A stretch of DNA of 53,026 nt from a virus. Of the stretch, positions 3,462 to 33,241 are shown piece by piece. Made by a program: the position numbers and the translations under genes. A model generated the notes under the pieces. That model did not search any database. It was given only the letters and a program-made list of their open reading frames with translations, and was not told the DNA's origin. Location: the IMG/VR virus record IMGVR_UViG_3300042691_041916, positions 1 to 53,026 of that record; one strand, written 5' to 3'. Every line of letters begins with the position of its first letter. Position 1 is the stretch's first letter.

Positions 3462-3519
3462 GGTGGGGACCCCGCCCCCTTACCCCCATAATTATACTTG
3501 CTTTAATGGGATGTGTCAA
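3462..3519 (-). promoter_or_regulatory. Hairpin-leader promoter cassette, copy 1
   Basis: TTGACA (3514-3519), 17 bp spacer, TATAAT (3491-3496), then GGTAAGGGGGC...CCCCACC forming a GC-rich stem just before the ATG at 3450. The stem here is GGGG/CCCC instead of the usual GGCGGC/GCCGCC, a compensated change. Confidence 0.85.
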
Positions 3520-3836
3520 CCCTCCCCAACCCAGCTCGGGTCAGTGGCTTTGTGATGAACCCACTCGGGCAGGTCGGCTGATGGTTCATACGGTTCCTTG
3601 CCTTGATAGCAACGCTTGCATAGTTGAACAAATTCCCCGTCGACCTTGTGATAACTTAGGTGTTCACGGCAGAAGTAAAGCCCACACCCGTGTTCACCTC
3701 CGTAAGGCTGACCTCCACAAACATGGGCTAAACCACGGTTAATCTCTGCCGTACAGTTTGGATGATCGCACTGTGACGGAACCCCGTACCCTATGTCCCT
3801 TTGCCAATTGCTATCGTAACCAATTGACCAACCCAT
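3516..3836 (-). CDS. Cysteine/histidine-rich probable zinc-binding protein
   Basis: 106 residues with C-D-H-P-N-C near residue 23, then HVCGG, GCGLYFCREHL and LCKRC, a set of Cys/His pairs that fits a treble-clef or small double zinc finger. Preceded by a strong Shine-Dalgarno (AAGGAGG, 5 nt before the ATG) and a canonical promoter (3858-3886), with no hairpin between. Role unknown; nucleic-acid or protein binding is likely. Confidence 0.8.
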   Translation of the reverse strand: MGWSIGYDSNWQRDIGYGVPSQCDHPNCTAEINRGLAHVCGGQPYGGEHGCGLYFCREHLSYHKVDGEFVQLCKRCYQGKEPYEPSADLPEWVHHKATDPSWVGEG

Positions 3837-3857
3837 TTTACCTCCTTAACTAAAGGC

Positions 3858-3886
3858 ATGGTAGGAAACTAGGGAAACGATGTCAA
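3858..3886 (-). promoter_or_regulatory. Sigma70-type promoter without leader hairpin
   Basis: TTGACA (3881-3886), 17 bp, TACCAT (3858-3863), then a short leader with AAGGAGG before the ATG at 3836. This is one of the few Shine-Dalgarno-type leaders in the accessory region. Confidence 0.75.
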
Positions 3887-4134
3887 CCCCTGGGGTTCAG
3901 CTCCAAGGGGCACGAGTAGCGATGGTAAATTTCCCAGGTAGCCCGGAGCAGGATGCGCTCAGTTAGACTCAGATCGAACCAGCGAAGCTCCATGTCAATC
4001 CGGCGGATTGCATCCTTGGCACTTTCGCTAAGTTCGCAAAGGTGACTACCATCATTCAGGGCAGCCGACACAGCCTCCTGCAGATTGTGAATCTGGCTCA
4101 GAGGGACTTTGGACAGGGATACGGTGGCAGTCAT
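3883..4134 (-). CDS. Hypothetical small helical protein
   Basis: 83 residues from the ATG at 4134 (MTATVSLSKVPLSQ), chosen because it directly follows hairpin cassette 2. Predicted mainly helical (NLQEAVSAALND, KDAIRRIDMELRWFDLSLTERI). No domain recognised. Confidence 0.7.
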   Translation of the reverse strand: MTATVSLSKVPLSQIHNLQEAVSAALNDGSHLCELSESAKDAIRRIDMELRWFDLSLTERILLRATWEIYHRYSCPLELNPRG

Positions 4135-4145
4135 TGCTTTGGTGC

Positions 4146-4202
4146 GGTGGCGGCCTTGCCGCCTTACCCTATAATTATAGCACATGGGGCAAGGGCACAT
4201 AA
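4146..4202 (-). promoter_or_regulatory. Hairpin-leader promoter cassette, copy 2
   Basis: TATAAT (4174-4179) with a weak -35 (TTATGT, 4197-4202), followed by the stem GGCGGC-AAG-GCCGCC and the ATG at 4134. Confidence 0.75.
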
Positions 4203-4253
4203 GGCAAAGCCCCGGCTTTCGCCAGGGCGCTCCCATCGCTTGACCCAGGGCCA

Positions 4254-4469
4254 TCAGGCAAGGGCATGGCGCTGCATGAGCACGCTCACAGCGCTGCGAA
4301 CAGAGCCCGTCAGGTAGTCCAGGAGGTGCTCGGCCTCAGGGTCGGTGACCTCGGCCAGGGCCTCCTGAGCGGTAATGCCATAGTGCTGGGCGATGCTGTT
4401 CAGAACGTCCCGGCGGGTAGCGGCATCGGTGGCAGCGAGGAATGCAGCGTTCTTTTGGGAAGCGGTCAT
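4254..4469 (-). CDS. Hypothetical small helical protein
   Basis: 71 residues from the ATG at 4469 (MTASQKNAAFLAATDAATRR), right after hairpin cassette 3. Ala- and Glu-rich, probably all helical (ITAQEALAEVTDPEAEHLLDYL). No domain recognised. Confidence 0.7.
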   Translation of the reverse strand: MTASQKNAAFLAATDAATRRDVLNSIAQHYGITAQEALAEVTDPEAEHLLDYLTGSVRSAVSVLMQRHALA

Positions 4470-4480
4470 GGGTCTGAAGC

Positions 4481-4538
4481 GGTGGCGGCTGCGCCGCCTT
4501 ACCCCCATATTATAGCACACTGCCTTAGGTGCTGTGAG
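4481..4538 (-). promoter_or_regulatory. Hairpin-leader promoter cassette, copy 3
   Basis: TATAAT (4509-4514), weak -35 overlapping the 3' end of the upstream gene, then stem GGCGGC-GCA-GCCGCC and the ATG at 4469. Confidence 0.7.
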
Positions 4539-4965
4539 CGTGAGGAGGCATGGCCCCTGCCTCTTGCTGAGCCAGTAGCCATAGCTTTCTTACAGCCTCA
4601 GGCTCATCGGTAAGCTGCCTCAGGCGCACCCACAGCTCCCTTAGGTCGTCAGGCACGCTCGCCACCTTTACCCCTTCTGCCTTAGGCACTCCATTCTCAT
4701 TAACATAAGCAGCAATGCAATCTGCCAACCCCTTACCTCCATACTCCGCAAAGAAGTTGTCTTCTTCGGTCCATTCCCACCTCCCCTCATCACCCCGAAA
4801 AAGTTGCCCTTGCCAAAGAAACTCCTCCCACTTCTGTTTAGTAACCTCCTCAATATGGACTAAACCTTCCTCAACAGAAAGAAGGCGCAAGTATAAGGGG
4901 TGGCCCTTGTATTTTACAGAAAAATGGAAGTATTCGGAGCGAGTGTAGGCTGGCTTTGCAATCAT
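4525..4965 (-). CDS. Hypothetical protein
   Basis: 146 residues, acidic and Trp-rich in the middle (WEEFLWQGQLFRGDEGRWEWTEEDNFF), helical C-terminus. No domain recognised. No hairpin cassette or good Shine-Dalgarno before the ATG at 4965. It lies just downstream of the XRE gene and may be in its operon. Confidence 0.7.
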   Translation of the reverse strand: MIAKPAYTRSEYFHFSVKYKGHPLYLRLLSVEEGLVHIEEVTKQKWEEFLWQGQLFRGDEGRWEWTEEDNFFAEYGGKGLADCIAAYVNENGVPKAEGVKVASVPDDLRELWVRLRQLTDEPEAVRKLWLLAQQEAGAMPPHAHST

Positions 4966-5002
4966 TGCTTTTAACGAGGTAGCAGTAAGCTGATTACCCT
5001 AC

Positions 5003-5209
5003 TCAATCTGGTGGGAAGTGGGCGCAATTTGCAAAGATAGCTGTAGCTATCAGAGCAAAGAAAAGTGCAAGTGGATAGATCCCCAATGCCGTAAAAACTA
5101 CAGTTAGAACAGTGAGGACGAGGTAGATCCTCAATGCCCTTTTGATAGGGGTCTTAGTGAAAAATTGAACAATAAACCCTCTGATTGCATGGCGAATCCT
5201 CTCAGGCTC
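5003..5209 (-). other. Membrane-spanning extension of the XRE gene in the -1 frame
   Basis: After the A8 run in the XRE gene, the -1 frame continues EPERIRHAIRGFIVQFF and then two hydrophobic segments (IYLVLTVLTVVFTALGIY and LALFFALIATAIFA) to a TGA at 5003. This frame has no ATG of its own between its upstream TAG and the hydrophobic part, so it is best explained as the second half of the regulator, reached by a -1 slip or broken off by a missing A. Confidence 0.6.
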
Positions 5210-5556
5210 TTTTTTTTCACTGAACTAGCGGCTGTATACGGGGGAGCATACTGAGCGTCCTCTGAGAGATTCTGACTATCCTCGGCCAGTTCAGAGTAAG
5301 GGATGAACTTTACAGACAGGGCGCAGTCAAATACCTTCGCCACCTTGACAAGGGTCTCAAGTGGGTATTCCCCAATTTCAGGGTCTTCCAGCTCTTGCAT
5401 CATGGGCAAACTAATCCCCATGGCCTTAGCCAGGTCCTCTTGTGTGATTCCCCGCTTTTGGCGGTTAATCCGGATCTGCCATGCAATTCCCTGTTCTAAA
5501 GAAGCCTCAAGATAAGCTTCACGGTACTCCCTGTCTTGCCACTCAGGTTTGCTCAT
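5131..5556 (-). CDS. XRE-family helix-turn-helix regulator, with a possible -1 frameshift to a membrane tail
   Basis: From the ATG at 5556 (MSKPEW) the zero frame gives 141 residues. Residues about 28-80 form an XRE/Cro-type HTH (IRINRQKRGITQEDLAKAMG, LETLVKVAKVFD). Residues 113-117 are encoded by GTG AAA AAA AAG AGC, containing the dnaX-type slippery heptamer A AAA AAG (T8 on the plus strand at 5210-5217). Staying in frame adds a nondescript tail; slipping -1 adds a basic segment and two hydrophobic helices to about 184 residues in total. Shine-Dalgarno-like AGAGGG precedes the ATG. It is the second gene of an operon with 5561-5746 and is a candidate regulator of the promoter cassettes. Confidence 0.8.
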   Translation of the reverse strand: MSKPEWQDREYREAYLEASLEQGIAWQIRINRQKRGITQEDLAKAMGISLPMMQELEDPEIGEYPLETLVKVAKVFDCALSVKFIPYSELAEDSQNLSEDAQYAPPYTAASSVKKKSLRGFAMQSEGLLFNFSLRPLSKGH

Positions 5557-5560
5557 ACTG

Positions 5561-5746
5561 TCATCCCTCTTGACCATCGAAAACCTTGGCAAACTCCTCA
5601 GCCGCCTCAAATGCCATTTCTGCGAGAGTCTTAAGCATTGCCCGGCGATCTCGGGGATCAAGGGTTCCAAGCCCTGACGATTGATTCAGCCAACCCGTGT
5701 AAAGGGTCTGACCAATGTTTACGAAGCGCTCTTGAGAGAAATTCAT
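5561..5746 (-). CDS. Hypothetical small protein upstream of the XRE gene
   Basis: 61 residues from the ATG at 5746 (MNFSQERFVNIGQTLYTGW), after hairpin cassette 4. Helical, with an Ala/Glu-rich end (LAEMAFEAAEEFAKVFDG). Four bases separate its stop from the XRE start, so the two are co-transcribed. Confidence 0.75.
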   Translation of the reverse strand: MNFSQERFVNIGQTLYTGWLNQSSGLGTLDPRDRRAMLKTLAEMAFEAAEEFAKVFDGQEG

Positions 5747-5758
5747 GGTTTTATGGCG

Positions 5759-5814
5759 GTGGGGCCCCGGCCCCTTACACATCAATTATAGCACCCCCTT
5801 AAAGGGACTGTCAA
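5759..5814 (-). promoter_or_regulatory. Hairpin-leader promoter cassette, copy 4
   Basis: TTGACA (5809-5814), 18 bp, TATAAT (5785-5790), then the stem GGGGCC-GG-GGCCCC. Both arms differ from the usual GGCGGC/GCCGCC in a pairing-preserving way. Confidence 0.85.
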
Positions 5815-5817
5815 CCC

Positions 5818-6252
5818 TCAGGCAAGGTTGTAGAGGGAGAGGAGACGGTCGAACTCGTTACGGTCGAACTTAGGGTGGGCAAACCACCGCTTTTGGATAG
5901 AGTTAAAGTCAAAGCGATAATGGCCATCAGGGTAGGCAACCCTGTAAAACTGGCAGCGGATAGCCTGGCCGGTGGGGCTGTAGTCCTCAGCGACAGCCTC
6001 AGGCAGATCCACTCCATCCTTCTCCGCCTGCTCCAGCGCCTCCCGCTTCCATGTCTCCCGCTTGCTGCGGATAGACTCACGCAGCTCCTGGTTGTACTGA
6101 TCCATGGCCTCAGAGTAGGCCTGGCGGCGCTCCTGCATCTCCTGCAGCTCATCGTCGGTCATCACGTCACGGACACGCTGACGGTTGCGGAGCGCATCCC
6201 GCAGACGGGCGCTCAGGGCTTCGTAACGTTCGTCGGTGGCAGGCATGGGCAT
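5818..6252 (-). CDS. Hypothetical charged helical protein
   Basis: 144 residues. The N-terminal 90 residues are highly charged and likely coiled coil (SARLRDALRNRQRVRDVM, ELQEMQERRQAYSEAMDQY). The C-terminal part is mixed (IRCQFYRVAYPDGHYRFDF). No domain recognised. The ATG at 6252 follows hairpin cassette 5; a second in-frame ATG at 6246 is also possible. Confidence 0.75.
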   Translation of the reverse strand: MPMPATDERYEALSARLRDALRNRQRVRDVMTDDELQEMQERRQAYSEAMDQYNQELRESIRSKRETWKREALEQAEKDGVDLPEAVAEDYSPTGQAIRCQFYRVAYPDGHYRFDFNSIQKRWFAHPKFDRNEFDRLLSLYNLA

Positions 6253-6264
6253 GGTTTCTGAAGC

Positions 6265-6322
6265 GGTGGCGGCTCAGCCGCCTTACCCTATTATTGTAGC
6301 ACCTTGCTCCCAGGGTTGACGA
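6265..6322 (-). promoter_or_regulatory. Hairpin-leader promoter cassette, copy 5
   Basis: TCGTCA (6317-6322), 18 bp spacer, TACAAT (6293-6298), stem GGCGGC-TGA-GCCGCC, then the ATG at 6252. A run of 11 C (plus strand, from 6365) lies between this cassette and the gene upstream. Confidence 0.8.
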
Positions 6323-6396
6323 CTCCGGGGACTAGGCCGGGGAGCCTTGGCTTAAAGCAGGGATCCCCCCCCCCCAGAACCTGCACGGGGTCTTAA

Positions 6397-6591
6397 CTAT
6401 TCCTTTATTTCCCTAATATCCTCTACCCTTGAGGAAGCGCAGAAAGCAGAGGCATAGTGAGGATCTTTGCTAACCCTGTCCATCCCAAACCTGTCACTTT
6501 TTAAAAATTCATTCGCAACAGCATCCACGTCGTAGCGATCAGGGAAACTCACCTCAAGAGTCAATGAGAAGGTAATGCTGGCTTTTTTCAT
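6397..6591 (-). CDS. Hypothetical small protein
   Basis: 64 residues (MKKASITFSLTLEVSFPDRY...). It begins with two likely beta strands and then a helix. No domain recognised. No hairpin cassette; close behind 6620-6796, so probably in the operon started upstream. Confidence 0.65.
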   Translation of the reverse strand: MKKASITFSLTLEVSFPDRYDVDAVANEFLKSDRFGMDRVSKDPHYASAFCASSRVEDIREIKE

Positions 6592-6619
6592 TTTGCGGGA
6601 AGCTTACAGGGAGGGGGCG

Positions 6620-6796
6620 TCAAATCTGTGGAACAATCTCAAAATCATCGGGGGTAAGTGTTTTGTCCATAAAATAGCCACGTTTGCAATACTCTGGGAT
6701 TACCTTATTCAGGTGCCTCTGAGCACTTTCCTGAGAATCGAAAATAGCGTGGATGACATTGTGGTTTCTTTTCTCTGTTAGGTAGAACTTTTCCAT
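6620..6796 (-). CDS. Hypothetical small protein
   Basis: 58 residues from the ATG at 6796 (MEKFYLTEKRNHNVIHAIFD). The longer open frame upstream overlaps the neighbouring gene and is not used. No domain recognised. Confidence 0.65.
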   Translation of the reverse strand: MEKFYLTEKRNHNVIHAIFDSQESAQRHLNKVIPEYCKRGYFMDKTLTPDDFEIVPQI

Positions 6797-6809
6797 AGGG
6801 CTACGCAGA

Positions 6810-7682
6810 TTAAGCACACTGGAGCAGGGTGGCCTTAGTGGGGCGGCTAAAGAATCCAAACTTATCATCGTCGTTCGACACCGTAACCTTGGCATCGAAG
6901 CGAACATAGCAACCCCGCTCAATTCCCTCCCTCAGCAAGGAAGTAGGAGCACTGCCATACACCTTCCAGCCCTCATCCGAAACCACCAAGATTTTCGTCA
7001 TTGTCCCAAAGTCACTGTCAACTTGTTTGACGGAAAGGACTTTTCCTTTAATGGTGCCCCTGACATTGTTGAAGGGGACAGGTTGAGCCGCTTCCTTCTC
7101 AGCTTTACGCTCCGCCTCAATGCGCTCTTTGTTTTCCTCCCAATGATCGTGTTGCTCGATGAGCTTTCCAAGGAAGGCAAATTGTTTCTCAGTCAGATCC
7201 CCATACTTAACAAGCTTACCCACAAGGTCTTTGATAATCGGCCGTTGACGGTTATGAGCAGACCAATCCATTTGAGATATCTCCCAAGCCCTTTCCAAGC
7301 TCATTTCCTTAAGAACAAGCTGGGCTTTTGCCTTACCGGCCTTAGCCTTCTTAGCCCGTGCCACCTCATCTTTCAGGCGACGGAAAACATCAGCGTCCCC
7401 TCCACCGAGTTTCTCGGCGCAGTCATACCCCGTAGCAATGTAGGTGTTTGAGGGACGGTGAAACCAGATAACACGGTAGAAAGCGAGAGCGCCGCAGACG
7501 TGGCAGCTCCCTCCGTGGGCATGATCGCTCATGCGCCCGCCAGTGCGCAGCCGATGGGCATTAAACGCCTCCATTTCCTGGCGGCCCGTCCCCAGCTCTT
7601 CGTCCCCGAACGTGGCCACATAATCGTAGTCGTCGGGGATGATGGCGGAGGGGCGATGAATGTCAGTGCGCTGCTGAGCCAT
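6810..7682 (-). CDS. Zinc-finger protein with possible OB-fold C-terminus
   Basis: 290 residues from the ATG at 7682 (MAQQRTDIHRPS), following hairpin cassette 6. Around residues 60-95 is CHVCGALAFYRVIW...ATGYDCAEKL, a likely zinc-binding segment. A basic helical stretch follows (RRLKDEVARAKKAKAGKAKA). The last 90 residues (IKGKVLSVKQVDSDFGTMTK, WKVYGSAP, RGCYVRFDAKVTVS) look like a small beta-barrel (OB-type) domain. Nucleic-acid binding is the likely general role; the exact function is not known. Confidence 0.75.
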   Translation of the reverse strand: MAQQRTDIHRPSAIIPDDYDYVATFGDEELGTGRQEMEAFNAHRLRTGGRMSDHAHGGSCHVCGALAFYRVIWFHRPSNTYIATGYDCAEKLGGGDADVFRRLKDEVARAKKAKAGKAKAQLVLKEMSLERAWEISQMDWSAHNRQRPIIKDLVGKLVKYGDLTEKQFAFLGKLIEQHDHWEENKERIEAERKAEKEAAQPVPFNNVRGTIKGKVLSVKQVDSDFGTMTKILVVSDEGWKVYGSAPTSLLREGIERGCYVRFDAKVTVSNDDDKFGFFSRPTKATLLQCA

Positions 7683-7693
7683 GATTCTGTAGC

Positions 7694-7751
7694 AGTGGCG
7701 GCCTTGCCGCCTTACCCGGATATTGTAGCACCTTGCCCTTAGGGTTGACGA
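7694..7751 (-). promoter_or_regulatory. Hairpin-leader promoter cassette, copy 6
   Basis: TCGTCA (7746-7751), spacer with CCCTAAGGG, TACAAT (7722-7727), stem GGCGGC-AAG-GCCGCC and the ATG at 7682. Confidence 0.8.
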
Positions 7752-7806
7752 CTCCCGGAGTTCGGAGGGGCAAGGGGCTTCCATTATTTAGAAACCCCTC
7801 GCACAA

Positions 7807-8268
7807 TCAACCCTTGAAAGAAGACAGCCACCAACCAATTTCCCCTTCAGGAGCAATCTCAAATTCTTCCATAAAGTTGATGAGGCGGCGGCGATCTTCC
7901 TCTTCAACTTTCAGATAATCTGAGGGGATTCCTACGGGGTAACCCCGATTGGCCTCAATGTGCTTAACAGCAAGGATGTACATGGGGTAATCCCCGCTAC
8001 AATAGTTGACTAGTTCGATAGGCAAGGGATTAGCCCTACGCCACTCGTTCCTTTTAGTAAAGTAGTTAGAAACTTCGGGCGAACCTGAATGAATACCGGG
8101 CTTAAACTCGCCAAACTCATCGAAAGGGTAGTCAACCGTTCCAGTAAAACCACGGACATCCTCCCACCATTCGTCAATGTCTCCCTCATACTTCTCATCG
8201 TCCCAAGGAAACTCAAATCCCTCCTCAAAGACGCAACCGTAGCTAAGCTGACCGTCTGTAGCACCCAT
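7807..8268 (-). CDS. Hypothetical acidic protein
   Basis: 153 residues from the ATG at 8268 (MGATDGQLSYGCVFEEGFEF), placed after hairpin cassette 7. Very acidic and Trp-rich (DDEKYEGDIDEWWEDVRGF; C-terminal EEDRRRLINFMEEFE). No domain recognised. Small acidic phage proteins often act as inhibitors or DNA mimics, but nothing here proves that. Confidence 0.75.
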   Translation of the reverse strand: MGATDGQLSYGCVFEEGFEFPWDDEKYEGDIDEWWEDVRGFTGTVDYPFDEFGEFKPGIHSGSPEVSNYFTKRNEWRRANPLPIELVNYCSGDYPMYILAVKHIEANRGYPVGIPSDYLKVEEEDRRRLINFMEEFEIAPEGEIGWWLSSFKG

Positions 8269-8284
8269 TGTTTTAACCAGTAGT

Positions 8285-8341
8285 GGCAGCCTCAGGCTGC
8301 CGAACTCAGACATTGTAGCACATTGCTTCCAAGGTTGCAAA
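8285..8341 (-). promoter_or_regulatory. Hairpin-leader promoter cassette, copy 7 (variant stem)
   Basis: TTTGCA (8336-8341), 18 bp, TACAAT (8312-8317). The stem is GGCAGCC-TGA-GGCTGCC, a double change that keeps pairing and so supports an RNA structure. Confidence 0.8.
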
Positions 8342-8371
8342 CTACGGGGTTCAAGGCAGGGAGCATCAACC

Positions 8372-8608
8372 CTAACGTTTGTCACATGACATCTGCACCC
8401 TTAACCAATACCCATCGCTTAACCCAAAGTATTCGCATAGGGTTTTTCCAATTCCTTCTGTGATCCTCAATTCTCCGCTGATAACCCCTTTAACTTGGCT
8501 CTCATCCAAACCTGTATCTCTGCAGAGTTGACTTATAGTTATGCCCATCGGGTCAAGAAACTCCTCTTTAAGGATTTCCCCCGGAGTGACCGGTTCAAGG
8601 TTTTGCAT
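8372..8608 (-). CDS. HigA-like XRE antitoxin-type protein
   Basis: 78 residues from the ATG at 8608 (MQNLEPVTPGEILKEEFLD), chosen over an upstream TTG because this is the usual start of the HigA family. The sequence PGEILKEEFLDPMGIT, an HTH (ISQLCRDTGLDESQVKGVI), and LCEYFGLSDGYWLRVQ match HigA/VapI-type antidotes. No HigB-type toxin is seen next to it, so it is either an orphan antidote or simply a transcriptional regulator. It follows 8636-8917 in the same operon. Confidence 0.85.
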   Translation of the reverse strand: MQNLEPVTPGEILKEEFLDPMGITISQLCRDTGLDESQVKGVISGELRITEGIGKTLCEYFGLSDGYWLRVQMSCDKR

Positions 8609-8635
8609 GGTTGTTTTGAGTTGAAAGTGGGACAA

Positions 8636-8917: not shown

Positions 8918-8929
8918 TGCTCTTGCGGC

Positions 8930-8987
8930 GGTGGCGGCTGGGCCGCCTTACCACCGTATTATACCATTCCTTGCTACTGGCAGGACA
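8930..8987 (-). promoter_or_regulatory. Hairpin-leader promoter cassette, copy 8
   Basis: TATAAT (8958-8963), -35 TGTCCT (8982-8987) inside the end of the upstream gene, stem GGCGGC-CCA-GCCGCC before the ATG at 8917. Confidence 0.75.
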
Positions 8988-9222: not shown

Positions 9223-9228
9223 GGTGGT

Positions 9229-9435
9229 TTAGGGCAGCGGATTAATAACGGTTGTTTTAGACTTAGACCTTTTAACATCAAGGCTGACCCATTGGCCCAC
9301 GTTCCAGTCAAAGTCAACATCCCACCCTTTCTTACTGAAGTGAGAATGGAGGATTTCCTCAATCTCGTCAGTGTCAAGAGTGAAACGCTCAGTCTCTGTT
9401 GTGGTAACTTGTCGCTTTACTTTGGAGCTTTCCAT
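9229..9435 (-). CDS. Hypothetical small protein
   Basis: 68 residues from the ATG at 9435 (MESSKVKRQVTTTETERFTL). Strand-helix-strand look (DEIEEILHSHFSKKGWDVDFD, VSLDVKRSKSKTTV). No domain recognised. First gene behind the promoter at 9458-9487, back to back with the only plus-strand gene. Confidence 0.7.
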   Translation of the reverse strand: MESSKVKRQVTTTETERFTLDTDEIEEILHSHFSKKGWDVDFDWNVGQWVSLDVKRSKSKTTVINPLP

Positions 9436-9457
9436 TTTGCATTTACAGGTCGTCAGC

Positions 9458-9487
9458 ATCGTAGCACCTTGCCCCTAGAGCTGTCAA
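9458..9487 (-). promoter_or_regulatory. Promoter of the repeated type without leader hairpin
   Basis: TTGACA (9482-9487), the conserved 18 bp spacer, TACGAT (9458-9463). The leader to 9435 contains no GC-rich stem. This lies in the divergent region facing the plus-strand gene at 9554. Confidence 0.75.
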
Positions 9488-9553
9488 CCCCCCTCAAGTG
9501 CTGCTTTAAGAGGTGAAAGGGGTAAATTACTTATAGTTAAAAATTGAAGAAAA

Positions 9554-11236: not shown

Positions 11237-11245
11237 TGAACATAC

Positions 11246-11804: not shown

Positions 11805-11816
11805 CGGGGTTAGGGC

Positions 11817-11874
11817 GGTGGCGGCTGAGCCGCCGTTCTCTAAGATTGTAGCACCTTGCCCTTAGGGGTGACTA
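11817..11874 (-). promoter_or_regulatory. Hairpin-leader promoter cassette, copy 9
   Basis: TAGTCA (11869-11874), 18 bp, TACAAT (11845-11850), stem GGCGGC-TCA-GCCGCC, then the ATG at 11804. Confidence 0.75.
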
Positions 11875-14577: not shown

Positions 14578-14588
14578 GGTTTCAGTGC

Positions 14589-14646
14589 GGTGGCGGCTGT
14601 GCCGCCTTACAGAACCATATTAGCACACCTCCCTAGCGATGGCAAC
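14589..14646 (-). promoter_or_regulatory. Hairpin-leader promoter cassette, copy 10
   Basis: TAATAT (14617-14622) with GTTGCC (14641-14646) at 18 bp, then stem GGCGGC-ACA-GCCGCC and the ATG at 14577. Weaker -10 and -35 than the other copies. Confidence 0.65.
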
Positions 14647-14885: not shown

Positions 14886-14896
14886 GGATTTTAGGC

Positions 14897-14956
14897 GGTG
14901 AGGGCCTCGGACCCCCTTACCCTTACATTGTAGCACCTTGCCCCAGGGTCGGCAAC
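14897..14956 (-). promoter_or_regulatory. Hairpin-leader promoter cassette, copy 11 (variant stem)
   Basis: GTTGCC (14951-14956), 18 bp, TACAAT (14927-14932), stem GGGGGUC-CGA-GGCCCUC. The stem differs from the usual sequence but still pairs (two G-U). Confidence 0.75.
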
Positions 14957-16193: not shown

Positions 16194-16205
16194 TACTTTT
16201 GGGGC

Positions 16206-16267
16206 GGTGGGGGCGACCGGCGCCCCCGTTCCCCATTATTGTAGCACCTTGCGCTCAGGGCCGTCAA
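16206..16267 (-). promoter_or_regulatory. Hairpin-leader promoter cassette, copy 12 (variant stem)
   Basis: TTGACG (16262-16267), 18 bp, TACAAT (16238-16243), stem GGGGGCG-CCGGT-CGCCCCC, then the ATG at 16193. Longest stem of the family. Confidence 0.85.
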
Positions 16268-16577: not shown

Positions 16578-16589
16578 GGTTTCTAAAGC

Positions 16590-16647
16590 GGTGGCGGCTG
16601 TGCCGCCTTACCCTATTATCATACACCCTTGCTTGGAGAGCCGTCAA
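16590..16647 (-). promoter_or_regulatory. Hairpin-leader promoter cassette, copy 13
   Basis: TTGACG (16642-16647), 18 bp, TATGAT (16618-16623), stem GGCGGC-ACA-GCCGCC, ATG at 16577. Confidence 0.8.
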
Positions 16648-17635: not shown

Positions 17636-17647
17636 TGGTTTAAGAAA

Positions 17648-17707
17648 GGTGGCAGCCTCAGGCCGCCTTACCCCTTAACTATACAGCCTCATTTGAAGGT
17701 CTGTCAA
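17648..17707 (-). promoter_or_regulatory. Hairpin-leader promoter cassette, copy 14
   Basis: TTGACA (17702-17707), 18 bp, TATAGT (17678-17683), stem GGCGGCC-TGA-GGCTGCC with one G-U pair. Confidence 0.8.
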
Positions 17708-18027: not shown

Positions 18028-18038
18028 TGGCTCAATGC

Positions 18039-18096
18039 GGTGGCGGCTGCGCCGCCTTACCCACATATTGTAGCACCTTGGCCTAGGGGTTGTCGA
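18039..18096 (-). promoter_or_regulatory. Hairpin-leader promoter cassette, copy 15
   Basis: TCGACA (18091-18096), spacer containing CCCCTAGGCC, TACAAT (18067-18072), stem GGCGGC-GCA-GCCGCC. Confidence 0.8.
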
Positions 18097-20577: not shown

Positions 20578-20594
20578 GGGGACTCCTGGGGCAG

Positions 20595-20651
20595 GGTGGC
20601 GGCTCAGCCGCCTTACCCCATAATTATACACCTCTGGCCAAACGGTGTCAA
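20595..20651 (-). promoter_or_regulatory. Hairpin-leader promoter cassette, copy 16
   Basis: TTGACA (20646-20651), 17 bp, TATAAT (20623-20628), stem GGCGGC-TGA-GCCGCC. Confidence 0.85.
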
Positions 20652-23873: not shown

Positions 23874-23877
23874 ACCA

Positions 23878-25272: not shown

Positions 25273-25280
25273 AGGTGAAA

Positions 25281-26168: not shown

Positions 26169-26180
26169 GACTAGCTTTAC

Positions 26181-26723: not shown

Positions 26724-26752
26724 TTTCTCTTATAATGCTGGAGAGGTTTAGC

Positions 26753-26920: not shown

Positions 26921-26924
26921 GGCC

Positions 26925-27907: not shown

Positions 27908-27943
27908 TTGCCCAATTAGCGAGTGGTTAATGTTGAAGTGAAG

Positions 27944-28285
27944 TTAGGCGCTCCAGGTTTCAGGAATTAGATCAGCTGTCCAATCCCAACAAGCGGCAAG
28001 GATCAAACCAAGGTTGATAAGATGCTCTTTACAACAGCCATGAATCATCACTCTGTCCTGCTCGTCAAAGTGCCAGTTGCTACAACCATCCCATTTCACA
28101 GAGCCGTGAGAGAAAACCTCTGCCTGCTCAATGCTCTCAGTTGGGTTATCTTCCGAGTCGTTGTAATAGTAAGTGCTAGGGTTGATGCCAAAACCTTGTA
28201 TTTGAAGAACCTTGTACTCAACATGGTGGCTGAGGGGCTTAGCAATAACGGTAAACCCCAGTTCCTCGAAATGGCGTATGTTCAT
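27944..28285 (-). CDS. Hypothetical protein
   Basis: 113 residues from the ATG at 28285 (MNIRHFEELGFTVIAKPLSH). Contains C-x-N-W-H, HGCCKEHL and a hydrophobic INLGLILAACWDWTADLI. No domain recognised. Confidence 0.7.
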   Translation of the reverse strand: MNIRHFEELGFTVIAKPLSHHVEYKVLQIQGFGINPSTYYYNDSEDNPTESIEQAEVFSHGSVKWDGCSNWHFDEQDRVMIHGCCKEHLINLGLILAACWDWTADLIPETWSA

Positions 28286-28290
28286 TGTAA

Positions 28291-28488
28291 TTAGAGGGAG
28301 CGGCTGCAATCTTCGATTTCCATTTGCAGCACGTCGTCAAAGTAAGGGTCGTCCTTGTGCTTAGCCATAAAGCCATCAACGTGAAACTGAGCAGAGACTT
28401 CAGGCTTGTAGTGATCTTGCTTTTGGTAAACAGAAAGCAGAACCTCGTACAACTCTTTGATCTTTTCCTGGTGCTTCGTTACGATCAT
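28291..28488 (-). CDS. Hypothetical small protein
   Basis: 65 residues from the ATG at 28488 (MIVTKHQEKIKELYEVLLSV). Helical, acidic end. First gene of a long run of closely spaced genes down to 21828. A perfect hairpin (28508-28539) lies just upstream. Confidence 0.7.
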   Translation of the reverse strand: MIVTKHQEKIKELYEVLLSVYQKQDHYKPEVSAQFHVDGFMAKHKDDPYFDDVLQMEIEDCSRSL

Positions 28489-28507
28489 GGCCAAAGGGGC
28501 AAAGGGC

Positions 28508-28539
28508 AAGTGCCGGGATAGGCTCCCGGCGGGCCACTT
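28508..28539 (-). promoter_or_regulatory. Intergenic hairpin of unknown role
   Basis: On the minus strand GCCGGGA-GCCTA-TCCCGGC forms a perfect 7-bp stem, flanked by AAGT/ACTT that can extend it. No U-run follows, so a standard intrinsic terminator is unlikely; an RNA-stability or processing element is possible. Confidence 0.55.
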
Positions 28540-28548
28540 ACGGGGCAA

Positions 28549-29118
28549 TCAAGCAGCCATAATCATAGCAGCCAGCTTGGCCTTAGGGTAGCGGCTGCGG
28601 GTCCCCGCCATCTCTCGGAGGGTGGTGGCGGGAAGGGCCATCAGGGCGTCCATTTTATTTACAAGCGTGGCCCCAAAATTTCCTTCAACTTCCTTAACAA
28701 TTCTCCCGGCATTGTTATCGTCAAGTTGCAACCAGTTAACGAAGGCGGAAGCGGCGGAATTTGTCACGGCAATGACCGGAGCGGCGAGAGGGGCAAGCGG
28801 GGCCATTTCTTCGGGCATTTCCTTCAATGCTACGGCAGAGGCGGAGCCAATTCTCTCAACCCAATTCCTTGTGACCATGCCAGCCTTATAGACGGCTTCA
28901 GCGGTGACAAAAGCGGAGGCAACAGCCATCACGGCAGCGTTGCGGATTTGCTGGCGACGCTCATAGGTGATCTCAGCCACCATCACGACAGCCATAGCAG
29001 CAAGCTGAGCGATGACGTAGGAAATACGGGCAGCGGCGGCGGTGCGGCTGCCCACAGCTCGCCAATCAATGTTCTTGAGGGTTTGGATCATGGGGTTGAA
29101 AGCGGAGTAAAAAATCAT
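28549..29118 (-). CDS. Alanine-rich helical, possibly membrane-associated protein
   Basis: 189 residues from the ATG at 29118 (MIFYSAFNPMIQTLKNIDWR). Long Ala/Val-rich helices (ISYVIAQLAAMAVVMVAEIT, NAAVMAVASAFVTAEAVYKA, MAPLAPLAAPVIAVTNSAAS) suggest membrane association or a helical bundle. No family recognised. Own cassette (copy 17). Confidence 0.75.
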   Translation of the reverse strand: MIFYSAFNPMIQTLKNIDWRAVGSRTAAAARISYVIAQLAAMAVVMVAEITYERRQQIRNAAVMAVASAFVTAEAVYKAGMVTRNWVERIGSASAVALKEMPEEMAPLAPLAAPVIAVTNSAASAFVNWLQLDDNNAGRIVKEVEGNFGATLVNKMDALMALPATTLREMAGTRSRYPKAKLAAMIMAA

Positions 29119-29129
29119 GGTTTTGATGC

Positions 29130-29189
29130 GGTGGCGGCCTCGGGCCGCCGGACTTAGATATTGTAGCACCTTTGTCTTGGCGGTGCAAG
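29130..29189 (-). promoter_or_regulatory. Hairpin-leader promoter cassette, copy 17
   Basis: CTTGCA (29184-29189), 18 bp, TACAAT (29160-29165), stem GGCGGCC-CGA-GGCCGCC, ATG at 29118. Confidence 0.75.
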
Positions 29190-29199
29190 TTCCGCAGGA

Positions 29200-29403
29200 T
29201 CAGAGGCCGAAGCTCAAAGCAAGGCGTTCAGCCCCACCGAGATCCTCGTCAATGGTAGCACAGATGCCCCCTTGATTATACTCCCGGATAATGTCCCCCT
29301 TGCTCAGGTGCGACGTGCGACCATACTGTAGAAGGAGATAGGCCAACACGTAGCGGGCTCGGGCTTCGTCAATGGAAAGGATGCCAGCGATGGTCTTTTT
29401 CAT
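29200..29403 (-). CDS. Hypothetical small protein
   Basis: 67 residues (MKKTIAGILSIDEARARYVL...), helical. No domain recognised. Own cassette (copy 18). Confidence 0.75.
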   Translation of the reverse strand: MKKTIAGILSIDEARARYVLAYLLLQYGRTSHLSKGDIIREYNQGGICATIDEDLGGAERLALSFGL

Positions 29404-29414
29404 TTACTTGGGGC

Positions 29415-29473
29415 AGTGGCGGCTCCGGCCGCCTTACCCACTAATTGTAGCACCTTGACCTTGGGGCTGTCAA
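29415..29473 (-). promoter_or_regulatory. Hairpin-leader promoter cassette, copy 18
   Basis: TTGACA (29468-29473), 18 bp, TACAAT (29444-29449), stem GGCGGC-CGGA-GCCGCC. Confidence 0.8.
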
Positions 29474-29485
29474 CTCTGGGGTTTT

Positions 29486-29519
29486 ACGGGGGGCAAGCAC
29501 CTTGCTCCCTGGGTTGTGG
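29486..29519. repeat. Truncated copy of the promoter repeat lacking a -10
   Basis: Same truncated repeat as at 18111-18145; 24 bases are identical between the two. No TACAAT-like box where one is expected. Confidence 0.75.
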
Positions 29520-29585
29520 CTCTGGAAGGGGGAGGCACGTTAGCAATTAGTAACATTGCTTCGGTGGAGGGAGGTTAGAAGCAAA

Positions 29586-29760
29586 TTAAACAATGCCAAG
29601 AATGTATTTGTCCTCTTCAGACAGAGAGCTTAGCAGTTCTTTTCTCCTATCAAGAAACCTTTGCCTCTCCCCGGTAAGACTGCCTCCGGCCAAACTTCCC
29701 GTAAACTTTGCTATACGGTCCAATTCAGCTTTGACTGTATCGAACTCATCTCCGCTTTGA
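29586..29760 (-). pseudogene. 3' part of the phage gene interrupted by the TnpB element
   Basis: Reads QSGDEFDTVKAELDRIAKFT...SLSEEDKYILGIV to its stop. It is the continuation of the frame at 31041-31270. Joining the two across the element gives ..GCFWV-D-QSGDEF.. in one frame, 134 residues in total. Helical and charged; function unknown. Confidence 0.85.
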
Positions 29761-29835
29761 TTGACGTCCTCCCCACCGTTAACGGTGGGGATTCCTAACC
29801 TCACGATTAGGGTTTCCTGTTTCTTCCCCTTAAAC
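29761..29835 (-). ncRNA. Probable 3' part of the TnpB guide RNA (omega RNA)
   Basis: The 75 bases between the tnpB stop and the right end carry GTGAGGTTAGGAATCCCC and the terminal hairpin, the position of omega-RNA scaffolds in this family. The guide would then be the flanking phage sequence starting TCAAAGCGGAGATGAG (29760 downward), with TTGA as the target-adjacent motif. Inferred from family knowledge. Confidence 0.5.
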
Positions 29836-30981
29836 TTAAGTATGGCTTAAGGATCCACAGGCTAACGCCGCTCGCCCAGCGGCTAAAACATTCTTAGCTG
29901 CGTTAACATCCCTATCTAATAGGGTTCCGCAGTTTTGACACTCCCAGCTTCTTTCGCTAAGAGTTAATTTTTCAGATTTTCTGGAATTACAAACGTTGCA
30001 AACTTGGCTGCTGGGGTAGAAACGGTCAATTTTAACAACCGTTCTTCCATACCACTCAGCTTTATACTCCAACTGTCTTGTAAACTCATACCAGCTTGCA
30101 TCGTAGATAGACTTTCTTAAACCTTTACTGGCGTTTTTAACCATCTCGGTAACACAGAGGTCTTCAACAAAAATCGTTTGGTTTTCACGAATCAATGTTG
30201 TTGACAATTTGTGTAAAAAGTCCAGTCTGCAGTTTACTATGTCTTCATGAACCTTAGCAACTTTTCTTTTTTGTTTTAGATAGTTCCTACTACCTTTTTG
30301 TTTCCTACTAAGCCTCCTTTGTTCCTTAGCTAATTTATGCTGAAACTTCCTATAGAACCTAGGGTTCTCAACCTTAAAACCCTTGTCGGTAGTAAGATAG
30401 GTTTGTAAACCCAAATCTAAACCTACGGAGTTTTTACAATGTGGGAGTTTCTGAAGCTCAGGCCCTTTAAACTTAAGGGAAACAAACCACCTCCCACTAC
30501 CTTTACGGGTAATTGTGATGGATGATGGTTCTAAACCTTCGGGTAAAGGACGGGAGTAAACAACAGGCAAAGGGTCTTTGACCTTAGCAATGTAAAGCTC
30601 CTTCCCTTTAAAACTAAAGGCGTTTTTAGTCAGGGTTATACCGTGAGACTTCCATTTCTTTTTAAAGTTAGGAAACCTGGCAAAACCCTTGAAAAAGTTT
30701 TTGAAAGCTCTATCAAGGTGTAAAATCGTCTGTTGTAAACCAACAGAAGAAACATCAAGTAGGAAAAAGAAATTAGCATCCTTTTTCCAAGCGGTTAGCT
30801 TTTTACTAACCGTGTTAACATTCCACTTAGCTTTCTTATCTACTTTCCTTGCTTCTGTATGCTCAAACAAAGCCTTGTTGTAAACAAACCTAGAGCACCC
30901 AAGCGCTTGAACCAGGAACGCTTCCTGCTCCAACGTTGGGTAGAACCTGTATTTGTAAGAGAAAAGACGTTGTTTGCTCAT
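29836..30981 (-). CDS. tnpB: TnpB RNA-guided nuclease (IS200/IS605, IS1341-like)
   Basis: 381 residues, full length. RuvC-like catalytic residues are visible: D189 in SVGLDLGLQT, E273 in FVEDLCVTEM and the aspartates in LLDRDVNAAKN (356/358). A zinc ribbon CNVCNSRKSEKL...WECQNCG precedes the last motif. N-terminal YRFYPTLEQEAFLVQALGCS is typical. By family knowledge TnpB uses an RNA made from its own 3' region plus the flanking DNA as guide. No TnpA is present, so movement would depend on one supplied elsewhere. Confidence 0.95.
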   Translation of the reverse strand: MSKQRLFSYKYRFYPTLEQEAFLVQALGCSRFVYNKALFEHTEARKVDKKAKWNVNTVSKKLTAWKKDANFFFLLDVSSVGLQQTILHLDRAFKNFFKGFARFPNFKKKWKSHGITLTKNAFSFKGKELYIAKVKDPLPVVYSRPLPEGLEPSSITITRKGSGRWFVSLKFKGPELQKLPHCKNSVGLDLGLQTYLTTDKGFKVENPRFYRKFQHKLAKEQRRLSRKQKGSRNYLKQKRKVAKVHEDIVNCRLDFLHKLSTTLIRENQTIFVEDLCVTEMVKNASKGLRKSIYDASWYEFTRQLEYKAEWYGRTVVKIDRFYPSSQVCNVCNSRKSEKLTLSERSWECQNCGTLLDRDVNAAKNVLAAGRAALACGSLSHT

Positions 30982-31040
30982 GACCTTCTTTTACCCAAGC
31001 CTGTTGTTGCTCTCAAAAGCCGGACTGAAGTCCGGGGTTT

Positions 31041-31270
31041 TCAACCCAGAAACAGCCCATGATAAAGGTAGGAATCGTAACTGTATCACTCACTTCTCTG
31101 CCAGGGATAAGGCAATCTGTGACGGTAAAATGAAATACAGTTCCATCACCTCGGTGCCCATACCTCAACTCCATCTCCACACCAACATTCTGCTTTTCCA
31201 TCGCAATGCTGATGGTTTGCAAAAGTTTGACAAGGATGGAGTGGGCTTCGGAAGCGTACAATGGGGTCAT
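31041..31270 (-). pseudogene. 5' part of the phage gene interrupted by the TnpB element
   Basis: Begins MTPLYASEAHSILVKLLQTI and contains VEMELRYGHRGDGTVFHFTV and CLIPGREVSDTV. It runs into the element and stops within it. The ATG overlaps the stop of 31267-31683 (TGA at 31269-31267). Continues at 29586-29760. Function unknown. Confidence 0.85.
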
Positions 31271-31683
31271 TTTGCCTCTTGAGTAGTTGGGATGAAATAA
31301 TCAAATCGCCAGCATGGGTAACCGTTGGACTGGTTGCAATACTCCATTACAAGGATCAGCTTTAGGTCGGGGCAGTCGGTCCAATCCCTCAAAAAAGCCT
31401 CAATTTTCTTAGGCTTGCGATTGTTCCAATACTGACCTTTGTTGCCAAAATGCTTTAGGCAAAGTTCGTCATGCTTATCCCAATCCCACCTCATCAGCCT
31501 ATCAGTGTACACGGTGTTGTTTGCATCACCGTTACAACCCCCACGCCACAACACAAAACCATCGTAGCTGTAAGGGTGGGAGAACTTCGTTCGTTCTACA
31601 GGGTTATCGTGCTCATCTACAAAGAACCCGACTTCACCCAGTGGTCCGCAAAGAGGGATTTCGTCTGAAAAATACGAGATCAT
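31267..31683 (-). CDS. Hypothetical protein
   Basis: 138 residues (MISYFSDEIPLCGPLGEVGF...), Trp- and Asp-rich with several cysteines (WRGGCNGDANN, WTDCPDLKLILVMEYCNQ). No domain recognised. ATGA overlaps at both ends. Confidence 0.75.
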   Translation of the reverse strand: MISYFSDEIPLCGPLGEVGFFVDEHDNPVERTKFSHPYSYDGFVLWRGGCNGDANNTVYTDRLMRWDWDKHDELCLKHFGNKGQYWNNRKPKKIEAFLRDWTDCPDLKLILVMEYCNQSNGYPCWRFDYFIPTTQEAK

Positions 31684-31970
31684 TTTTCGGCAGGGGTAGG
31701 GGGCCAGGGTTGGGGGACGTAGGTTACCATAAATTCGGCAAAACCCTTATCCTCAGGGAAGGGATACCCTTCACATTCCCAATCCCACTGAGAAATACCA
31801 TCGGGGCTATACCAGCCGCCCTCGTCACATTCCCAGCCAGCATCCATTCGGATCTGACCGACTTTCTCCTCATGGGCCATAGCAGCCTCAACTTTGGGAA
31901 GCAGCTCATACCAGTTGGCGTGGATGCCAGACATCCGCACATTGAACTCAACAGAGGGAGATACAGTCAT
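31680..31970 (-). CDS. Hypothetical protein
   Basis: 96 residues (MTVSPSVEFNVRMSGIHANW...), acidic with many Trp/Pro at the end (YVPQPWPPTPAEK). No domain recognised. Confidence 0.7.
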   Translation of the reverse strand: MTVSPSVEFNVRMSGIHANWYELLPKVEAAMAHEEKVGQIRMDAGWECDEGGWYSPDGISQWDWECEGYPFPEDKGFAEFMVTYVPQPWPPTPAEK

Positions 31971-32013
31971 TGCTTTCTTTGGTGAAATTGTCAGAGAGAT
32001 AAACTTAGGGCAG

Positions 32014-32280
32014 TCAGATCAAGGAGGAAAGGAGGGAGCGCAGGGCAACCTTAACGTCAGCAGCCTTATAGGCATCAATGGCCTTCAGAATTGCACCCTG
32101 GGTTGTGTCGGCCCAGAAATGGCGCCCCATGGAGAGGCGATTCATGCCATTGCGCTGAATGTAAATGCTGCACCCGCAAGTTTTCCCGGAGGAAAGACCA
32201 ACCTGCACTTGCTTTCCCTTAGGGGTAGTCAAGGTGAAGAAGTTGGGGCAGGTTTCGGATGTCTTGATTTGGGCGGGCAT
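32014..32280 (-). CDS. Hypothetical protein
   Basis: 88 residues (MPAQIKTSETCPNFFTLTTP...), strand-rich start with GKTCGCSIYIQRNGM and a helical end. No domain recognised. Own cassette (copy 19). Confidence 0.75.
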   Translation of the reverse strand: MPAQIKTSETCPNFFTLTTPKGKQVQVGLSSGKTCGCSIYIQRNGMNRLSMGRHFWADTTQGAILKAIDAYKAADVKVALRSLLSSLI

Positions 32281-32301
32281 CTGATCTGAGCGATGGGGCA
32301 G

Positions 32302-32360
32302 GGTGGCGGCTCAGGCCGCCTCACCCCTAAATTATAGCACCTTGCCCTGAGGGATGACAA
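32302..32360 (-). promoter_or_regulatory. Hairpin-leader promoter cassette, copy 19
   Basis: TTGTCA (32355-32360), 18 bp, TATAAT (32331-32336), stem GGCGGC-CTGA-GCCGCC. Confidence 0.8.
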
Positions 32361-32364
32361 CCCC

Positions 32365-32778
32365 CTAGCAACCCTCATCGTACATATCCGGCTCAGGCAG
32401 GATGATGGTGCCTTCCCTGACTTTACAGTTAAGAAGGGACATACCCGCCTCCTTGAGAGTTTTAATTGCCCCCTCTCTTGCTTTGCTGACGTTAGTGTCA
32501 CTCTCAGCCAGGGCGGAAGTAGCTACGATCATGTCCTCCAAGGACTTGAGCGCATCGCTAATCAGCTCACTGCCCGCCTCTTTAGGCTCCACTCTCTTTT
32601 GCTTAGGCACAAATTGAATTTCTTTCCCTTCTCTATCATTTTTTGCCAGCAATTCAAGGGTGTCAATAGCCGTTCTTATCACCTCTGCCTTTGACACCTT
32701 CATTTGGGACGCCATTTCTTCTAGGCGATCAATGAAAGCGCTGCTCGCCCTAATTTCAATCCGTTCTGTTTTTGCCAT
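32365..32778 (-). CDS. Ribbon-helix-helix regulator
   Basis: 137 residues from the ATG at 32778 (MAKTERIEIRASSAFIDRLE). Residues 1-45 (IEIRASSAFIDRLEEMASQM, KVSKAEVIRTAIDTL) are a CopG/Arc-type ribbon-helix-helix DNA-binding domain, followed by a charged linker and a helical C-terminus (ALKSLEDMIVATSALAE). The long leader holds two palindromes with the core AGGCACTGCCT, likely autoregulatory operators. Confidence 0.85.
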   Translation of the reverse strand: MAKTERIEIRASSAFIDRLEEMASQMKVSKAEVIRTAIDTLELLAKNDREGKEIQFVPKQKRVEPKEAGSELISDALKSLEDMIVATSALAESDTNVSKAREGAIKTLKEAGMSLLNCKVREGTIILPEPDMYDEGC

Positions 32779-32787
32779 GGTGATATT

Positions 32788-32802
32788 CGAGGCACTGCCT
32801 CG
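32788..32802. promoter_or_regulatory. Palindromic site 1 in the leader of the RHH gene
   Basis: CGAGGCA-C-TGCCTCG, a perfect 7+7 palindrome 10 bp before the ATG. It shares the core AGGCACTGCCT with site 2, centre-to-centre 39 bp away. Operator for the RHH protein is the likely meaning; an RNA hairpin is an alternative. Confidence 0.6.
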
Positions 32803-32827
32803 TGCGAGCCACAAGCTCCCCCAGGAA

Positions 32828-32840
32828 CAGGCACTGCCTG
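32828..32840. promoter_or_regulatory. Palindromic site 2 in the leader of the RHH gene
   Basis: CAGGCA-C-TGCCTG, a perfect 6+6 palindrome with the same core as site 1. Confidence 0.6.
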
Positions 32841-32875
32841 CTGTCCGGGACTCACTGGTGCGATGGTGGGTGGTA

Positions 32876-32934
32876 AGGGTGGGGCCAGGCCGCCTCACAA
32901 GTAAATTGTAGCACCTTGCCCCCATAACTGACAA
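32876..32934 (-). promoter_or_regulatory. Promoter cassette, copy 20, with degenerate hairpin and long leader
   Basis: TTGTCA (32929-32934), 18 bp, TACAAT (32905-32910). The GC-rich stem is imperfect here, and the leader to 32778 is about 120 nt instead of the usual 30-40, with the two palindromes inside it. Confidence 0.75.
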
Positions 32935-32992
32935 CCCCCGGAGCCTCAACACCGGGGCAACCTTGCCCCCAGGGCCGTCAGCCTTTGGGGCC

Positions 32993-33169
32993 TCACCCCC
33001 GGTTACCCGCCAACTGGAGGGCCAGAAGCTTATCCGACATCATCTGGGAGCACTCAAGGGTTTTCTGAAACTCTCGGGTGTGCTCCAGGTGAGCATGATT
33101 CCGCATCCACTTGCGGTTGTCTTCGATGGCGGCTTCCAGAAATTCAGCGGAGTCAATACGGCGGTTCAT
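32993..33169 (-). CDS. Small helical protein
   Basis: 58 residues (MNRRIDSAEFLEAAIEDNRK, then WMRNHAHLEHTREFQKTLEC). No domain recognised. It lies right behind cassette 21. Confidence 0.7.
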   Translation of the reverse strand: MNRRIDSAEFLEAAIEDNRKWMRNHAHLEHTREFQKTLECSQMMSDKLLALQLAGNRG

Positions 33170-33181
33170 TTTGCTCTAAGA

Positions 33182-33241
33182 GGTGGGTGGCTGCGCCGCC
33201 CTTACCCATATATTATACCACCTTTCCTTCATGGCTGACGG
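33182..33241 (-). promoter_or_regulatory. Hairpin-leader promoter cassette, copy 21
   Basis: CCGTCA (33236-33241), 18 bp, TATAAT (33212-33217), stem GGGCGGC-GCA-GCCACCC with one mismatch, ATG at 33169. Confidence 0.7.

Follow-up and report, generated by a model that had tools for sequence, protein, structure and literature searches.

A recurrent promoter and putative 5′-leader RNA hairpin unit in the accessory region of an S-CBWM1-related cyanophage

The promoter-early stem-loops (PeSLs) of T4-type phages were reportedly described by Arbiol 2010 and Comeau 2014, with the stem-loop said to be a transcription terminator. The early promoter of phage N4 is itself a hairpin, located on single-stranded DNA ahead of the start site. 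Here, a 53-kb viral fragment (IMG/VR record IMGVR_UViG_3300042691_041916, positions 1 to 53,026, hereafter the window) was analyzed for a recurrent unit of its accessory region, in which a sigma-70-type promoter is followed by a GC hairpin in the leader of a gene. PeSLs, which are cited in PMC4503421, are the nearest known cassettes of this sort and resemble this unit in being repeated small cassettes with a strong sigma-70 promoter and a stem-loop in variable phage gene regions, and a repeated strong sigma-70-type promoter in a hypervariable region was found here too. However, the PeSL hairpin is reportedly a terminator, whereas the hairpin of the unit belongs to the leader of the following gene and has no U-tract, and PeSLs occur in T4-type phages, whereas the module occurs in a phage that is S-CBWM1-like in its DNA polymerase and structural block. 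As for PeSL-type recombination, orthologs with and without the cassette and a cluster of four units in one related contig were seen.

The E. coli ompA-type 5′ stem-loop stabilisers (studies cited in PMC3997798), which act in the manner suggested here for the unit, carry a stable stem-loop on the messenger RNA (mRNA), either directly at its 5′ end or close to it, and in them structure matters over sequence. The phage hairpins also conserve structure and not sequence, and their proximity to the 5′ end, 10 nt past the -10, is predicted from promoter geometry. While the ompA-type elements are single leaders of individual genes, the phage module recurs about 20 times, each time right after a promoter and with a fixed spacing to the AUG. 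The hairpin promoters of the N4 virion RNA polymerase likewise place a short hairpin with a 3-nt loop in an early phage promoter unit (PMC4496689), but the module possesses -35 and -10 boxes and its hairpin lies downstream of a bacterial-type promoter, unlike that of N4. Another hairpin ahead of a start codon in a phage leader is the T4 gene 43 translational operator (PMC3014915); it serves one gene, and the bases at its tip and in its loop are conserved and contribute to gp43 binding, whereas the module has free loops and serves about 20 genes. No earlier report of the promoter and leader hairpin arrangement was found in a limited literature search covering few subscription journals, in line with the original prediction that no phage system of this exact form had been described.

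Each unit consists of a sigma-70-type promoter, 10 nt, a GC hairpin (stem 5–7 bp, loop 3–5 nt), usually 14–15 nt, and an ATG. Using a calibrated covariance model (R1), 20 full units were found in the window (E 2e-12 to 2e-4), with -10 positions spanning from 33217 down to 3496, all of them located in the accessory region (3.4–33.2 kb) and every one on the minus strand. The original prediction had counted at least 21 cassettes; a 21st promoter, at 32910, proved to be degenerate. Two window promoters of the class have no proper hairpin, with that at 32910 carrying a decayed inverted repeat and that at 9463 none. A further 29 units were obtained from three related contigs, namely 21 from G001 (IMGVR_UViG_3300032282_002699), four from G002 (3300034198_013392) and four from G005 (3300032173_000003), where promoters of the same class are mostly without a hairpin. 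A structure-blind scan, which scored only the promoter and the bases up to the stem with a cut-off of ≥16, revealed a hairpin behind 17 of 18 sites in the window and 21 of 24 sites in G001. A perfect hairpin of ≥5 bp begins at 0.6% of the window positions, compared with 16 of 23 promoters at the same exact offset. The promoter and hairpin observation is confirmed as real. The closing G-C pair, the GUAA before the stem and the A-C after it are near-invariant across the units, while the loop letters are free (26 different loops in 49 units); GUAA and GGU-like bases are also present in hairpin-less promoters of the same class. The mean pairing probability of the stem was 0.94 in the predicted transcripts.

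The covariation analysis was based on a sequence-only MAFFT alignment of 48 units with six stem pairs and shuffled controls; the alignment rows are units with a recognised hairpin, a selection that itself favours pairing, though the structure-blind scan showed that this filter dropped few promoters in the window and G001. Paired cells in the six stem pairs reached 98.6%, against 72.6 ± 1.8 after shuffling, with 53 double changes (15.8 in shuffles), and the covariation score was 0.585, compared with 0.141 after shuffling and ≤0.20 in slid versions. Among 990 column pairs ranked by the APC-corrected G statistic, five stem pairs rank 1, 2, 3, 4 and 11, and the sixth hardly varies, while the internal pairs switch between G-C and C-G. 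The claim that compensatory changes back the stem was borne out. The named stem variants are present as well, except that the stem at 5759 is GGGGC/GCCCC, only 5 bp, because 6 bp would leave a 2-nt loop. In contrast, a proposed extension of the stem by GGU and ACC around an AA bulge was not supported: most units would allow such pairing, but the positions do not covary, and 413 of 500 shuffles pair as well. The non-Watson-Crick stem cells on the RNA-sense strand comprise 15 G.U/U.G and two C.A (one-sided p = 0.0012, with rows partly non-independent), and as a double-stranded site would show both alike, the structure belongs to the transcribed strand. Judging from the alignment, the pairing is kept by selection while the letters change.

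Orthologous leaders, an independent check on the alignment, often retain a hairpin with changed letters or are without one: the hairpin is kept in seven cross-phage ortholog pairs, and the stem differs in six of them. For instance, win_4514 carries GGCGGC/GCCGCC and its G005 ortholog GCGGG/CCCGC (80% amino acid identity), win_16243 carries GGGGGCG/CGCCCCC and G001_70014 GGCGGC/GCCGCC (72%), and win_11850 carries GGCGGC and G001_73597 GCGGC, with a hairpin-less ortholog in G005. The win_8963 gene has orthologs in G001 and G005 without such a promoter directly upstream. The longest DNA matches between units are 24 nt. Because related viruses keep the hairpin shape and change its letters, the hairpin very probably works in the mRNA, and since the loop letters are unconserved, a purely structural role suits it. 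In G005, the leader with its -10 at 41872 is a hairpin-less ortholog of a G002 unit, where an alternative hairpin GGGGU/ACCCC with a 9-nt loop, reaching the G run of the start site, is possible.

The expectation that the hairpin begins within about 10 bases of the -10 and the start codon follows 10–20 nt later proved true and tighter, with 10 nt between the -10 end and the hairpin in 47 of 49 units (11 nt in the other two) and 14–15 nt between the hairpin end and the ATG in 39 of 49. Hairpin length ranges from 13 to 19 nt in the 49 units; the leader length grows one to one with it (slope 1.16 ± 0.17), and the AUG distance stays flat (slope 0.17 ± 0.17). Leader minus hairpin has a median of 25 nt, compared with 24.5 nt for hairpin-less leaders (p = 0.81). 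The 14–15 nt spacing is broken in all five units that contain a Shine-Dalgarno (SD) motif and kept in 39 of 44 SD-less units (Fisher p = 1.3e-4, post hoc), and this fixed spacing does point to a link with translation initiation. SD motifs were at background in the structural genes also (2/11 and 5/24), so the absence of SD is a phage-wide trait, and most orthologous leaders in G005 that lack the hairpin likewise have no SD. The suggestion that the hairpin replaces the SD is only partly supported, by the fixed spacing of the SD-less units; a strict substitute was rejected, SD being rare in hairpin-less genes as well.

The units are best read as sigma-70-type promoters whose transcripts bear a selected RNA hairpin near the 5′ end. 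From promoter geometry, +1 would fall at the seventh base past the -10, about four bases ahead of the stem, giving a transcript of approximately pppG-UAA-[hairpin]-ACYGC...AUG. A point 14–15 nt upstream of the AUG lies approximately at the upstream edge of an initiating ribosome, and with the hairpin base at this edge, hardly any of the leader would stay single-stranded and free once a ribosome is bound. Acting in cis on the mRNA, the hairpin could shield short SD-poor mRNAs from 5′-end-dependent and leader cleavage of the RNase E type, and could be a backstop holding the start codon accessible to the 30S subunit. We give a probability of about 0.5 to the reading that a 5′-leader RNA hairpin protects early mRNA and/or aids SD-less initiation; the two are not mutually exclusive, and protection is ranked somewhat ahead of initiation. 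The hairpin itself, its covariation, the asymmetry between strands, the rules of spacing and the gain and loss among orthologs were observed in the sequences, and the start sites, the early timing and the effect on mRNA lifetime or translation are parts of the proposal that we infer. Protection of the mRNA is plausible: cyanobacterial RNase E is similar to that of E. coli in the catalytic region, RNase E works in 5′-monophosphate-dependent and direct-entry modes, cyanobacteria have no close RppH homolog (PMC10989914), and in E. coli both RppH and RNase E are hindered by 5′ structure, with stabilisation of the mRNA (PMC3997798). Phage P-SSP7 increases host RNase E (PMC9692554, PMC10989914).

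Several observations weigh against this reading. The original prediction spoke of a 5′-terminal hairpin, and promoter geometry does place it near the transcript 5′ end, but if +1 has its normal position, some four bases at the 5′ end would be left single-stranded and the end would be sequestered only in part; such an overhang would suffice for an enzyme similar to the B. subtilis pyrophosphohydrolase, which requires ≥2 unpaired 5′ nucleotides (PMC3997798). The hairpin is absent from several orthologs and is therefore dispensable in principle, and the predicted pairing around the AUG is 0.45 with the hairpin and 0.44 in hairpin-less leaders, with no gain in openness. Common descent of the cassettes may also explain part of the fixed spacing, although the leader letters past the hairpin are only about 40% alike within one genome.

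A role in translation alone, with a fixed upstream backstop positioning or loading the 30S subunit on SD-less starts and little effect on mRNA lifetime, is possible, as the 14–15 nt to the AUG hold whatever the hairpin length and the departures are the SD units and five others. However, SD-less starts are common phage-wide and in the hairpin-less G005 leaders, so initiation without an SD does not require the hairpin, and the predicted start-site openness is equal with and without it. An RNA operator, bound by a phage or host protein that co-regulates early genes, would suit an element common to about 20 genes per genome with a nearly invariant closing G-C pair, preceding GUAA and following A-C. 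Yet the loop letters are free and the internal pairs occur in either G-C or C-G orientation, in contrast to the T4 gp43 operator, the conserved loop or bulge letters expected of a protein-binding RNA operator were not found in the 49 units, and GUAA recurs in hairpin-less promoters, which makes such an operator unlikely. Letter freedom also tells against a palindromic DNA operator, a repressor site just past the -10: although the palindrome is perfect, often 15 bp, and fixed in place relative to the promoter, the pairing is conserved and the sequence is not, its length varies between 13 and 19 nt, it is spaced to the AUG and not to the promoter alone, and G.U exceeds A.C by 15 to 2, an impossible preference for a double-stranded site. 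This reading was rejected on letter freedom and wobble asymmetry, and hardly any weight is left to it.

The constant distance immediately downstream of the promoter would also fit an element of transcription, in which the nascent hairpin aids promoter escape, limits backtracking or modifies RNA polymerase in an HK022 put-like manner. We consider this improbable, since a single short hairpin with free letters offers no conserved folded RNA, the conserved AUG spacing is unnecessary for an effect on polymerase, and terminator-like sites in the region are not enriched (21 found, 18.4 expected). Only one of the hairpins in 3–20 kb, at 17667, was flagged terminator-like, and a terminator reading was rejected because the U-tract is absent on the RNA strand. 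Promoter and stem-loop units serving mainly as gene-shuffling sites, as in a PeSL-like recombination cassette, would agree with their repetition within genomes, their place in the accessory region, the win_8963 orthologs without the promoter, and the four-unit minus-strand cluster of G002 amid conserved plus-strand genes; but the stem-loop has no terminator tail, and the DNA common to units is short (≤24 nt) with differing stems, which disfavours homologous recombination, and this explanation is doubtful.

The preferred reading, an RNA hairpin acting in the leader, concerns a module of restricted distribution. The nearest match of the window DNA polymerase, at 56% identity, is that of Synechococcus phage S-CBWM1. 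The block at 33.7–52.8 kb includes the head protease, portal, tail sheath and polymerase, and the majority of its genes are also represented in S-CBWM1 and in three IMG/VR contigs; by these matches, the window is a piece of an S-CBWM1-related cyanophage genome. A homing endonuclease-like gene (phrog_314, window 40978–41880) adjoins the portal gene, and G001 has one too. The proposed search of phage genomes yielded units in G001, G002 and G005, whereas the R1 scan found none in S-CBWM1 and the further relatives G003 and G004, none in 18 portal-related records (one of which gave two weak matches), and none convincing in the cyanophages S-TIM5, Mic1, S-CRM01 and A-HIS1. Weak R1 matches in G007, S-TIM5 and Mic1 (E ~0.02–0.03) were treated as chance. 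The scan of 292 cyanobacterial genomes returned a single weak match, not unit-like, and host mimicry was rejected, as neither a promoter of the class nor a start codon is seen in the stretch inspected around this match. A pattern scan of genome contigs gave scattered single matches, at pattern level only, BLAST of the unit consensus against the phage database gave partial matches only, and no Rfam family matched the window above gathering score. The idea that G002 and G005 are unrelated phages was dropped, as both have many genes of the S-CBWM1-like group and represent other regions of the genome. Because the module was found in few relatives and the hairpin is absent from most G005 promoters of the class, it is, on this sampling, lineage-restricted, with gain and loss possible. 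In G002 (17.3–20.6 kb), the four units drive clustered minus-strand genes flanked by conserved plus-strand genes, and as these flanking genes are only ~1.1 kb apart in G003, the cluster looks like an insertion.

The window units, all on the minus strand, are given here with their coordinates, -10, hairpin and R1 score. At the upper end lie 33175..33217 (TATAAT; GGGCGGC-gca-GCCACCC with one C.A mismatch; ATG 15 nt past the hairpin; 45.0 bits), 32296..32336 (TATAAT; GGCGGC-ctga-GCCGCC; 39.3 bits), 29408..29449 (TACAAT; GGCGGC-cgga-GCCGCC; 49.8 bits; ortholog G001_78909), 29123..29165 (TACAAT; GGCGGCC-cga-GGCCGCC; 42.0 bits; ortholog G001_9890) and 20589..20628 (TATAAT; GGCGGC-tga-GCCGCC; 41.0 bits), the last with an SD-like AGGAG and its ATG at 20 nt. 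These are followed by 18032..18072 (TACAAT; GGCGGC-gca-GCCGCC; 52.1 bits), 17641..17683 (TATAGT; GGCGGCC-tga-GGCTGCC with one G.U; 38.0 bits), 16583..16623 (TATGAT; GGCGGC-aca-GCCGCC; 46.1 bits), 16199..16243 (TACAAT; GGGGGCG-ccggt-CGCCCCC; 39.1 bits; ortholog G001_70014), 14890..14932 (TACAAT; GGGGGTC-cga-GGCCCTC with two G.U; 41.7 bits), 14582..14622 (TAATAT; GGCGGC-aca-GCCGCC; 31.4 bits; ortholog G001_72588) and 11810..11850 (TACAAT; GGCGGC-tca-GCCGCC; 38.7 bits). The remaining units are 8923..8963 (TATAAT; GGCGGC-cca-GCCGCC; 47.6 bits), 8276..8317 (TACAAT; GGCAGCC-tga-GGCTGCC; 27.9 bits), 7687..7727 (TACAAT; GGCGGC-aag-GCCGCC; 48.9 bits), 6258..6298 (TACAAT; GGCGGC-tga-GCCGCC; 51.0 bits), 5751..5790 (TATAAT; GGGGC-cggg-GCCCC; 41.2 bits), 4474..4514 (TATAAT; GGCGGC-gca-GCCGCC; 56.0 bits), 4139..4179 (TATAAT; GGCGGC-aag-GCCGCC; 50.6 bits) and 3455..3496 (TATAAT; GGGGGC-ggg-GTCCCC with one G.U; 42.9 bits). 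The degenerate unit at 32868..32910 (minus strand), missed by R1, retains an intact promoter (score 33.7), and the hairpin-less promoter at 9400..9463 (minus strand; TACGAT; promoter score 32.1) provides an internal control. Upstream of several units on the minus strand (window 29504, 18129, 15002 and near 32960), the promoter spacer recurs in degenerate form, for example as CCCTGGGAGCAAGGTGCTTGCCCCC; these copies form an inverted repeat of their own, have up to 24 nt in common with each other, and may be decayed or duplicated promoters.

The unit-driven genes, presumably expressed early, mostly encode small proteins without a family match. Exceptions are a SprT-like domain protein (Pfam) downstream of the window unit win_16243, an RNA ligase and an AAA/kinase-like protein in G001, a DNA methylase in G005, and an AbrB-like regulator and a DUF6011 protein in G002. 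The AbrB-like protein (L128 17321–17731, contig G002) carries the cyanobacterial AbrB-like domain PF14250 (E 2e-24) and is a possible host-takeover regulator. We tentatively suggest a genome-wide leader code in one cyanophage lineage, in which a portable 5′ hairpin one ribosome footprint upstream of SD-less starts would cap early mRNAs against decay and define where the ribosome lands. Little is known about the enzymes that act on RNA ends in cyanobacteria (PMC10989914), where an increase of host RNase E by at least one phage is described (PMC9692554). The units amount to about 49 natural replicates of one RNA leader, with varied hairpin letters and lengths and some hairpin-less orthologs, and they make it testable how mRNA lifetime and SD-independent translation in cyanobacteria depend on a 5′ hairpin and on its spacing to the AUG. 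They also provide compact parts for gene expression and a marker for the phage group.

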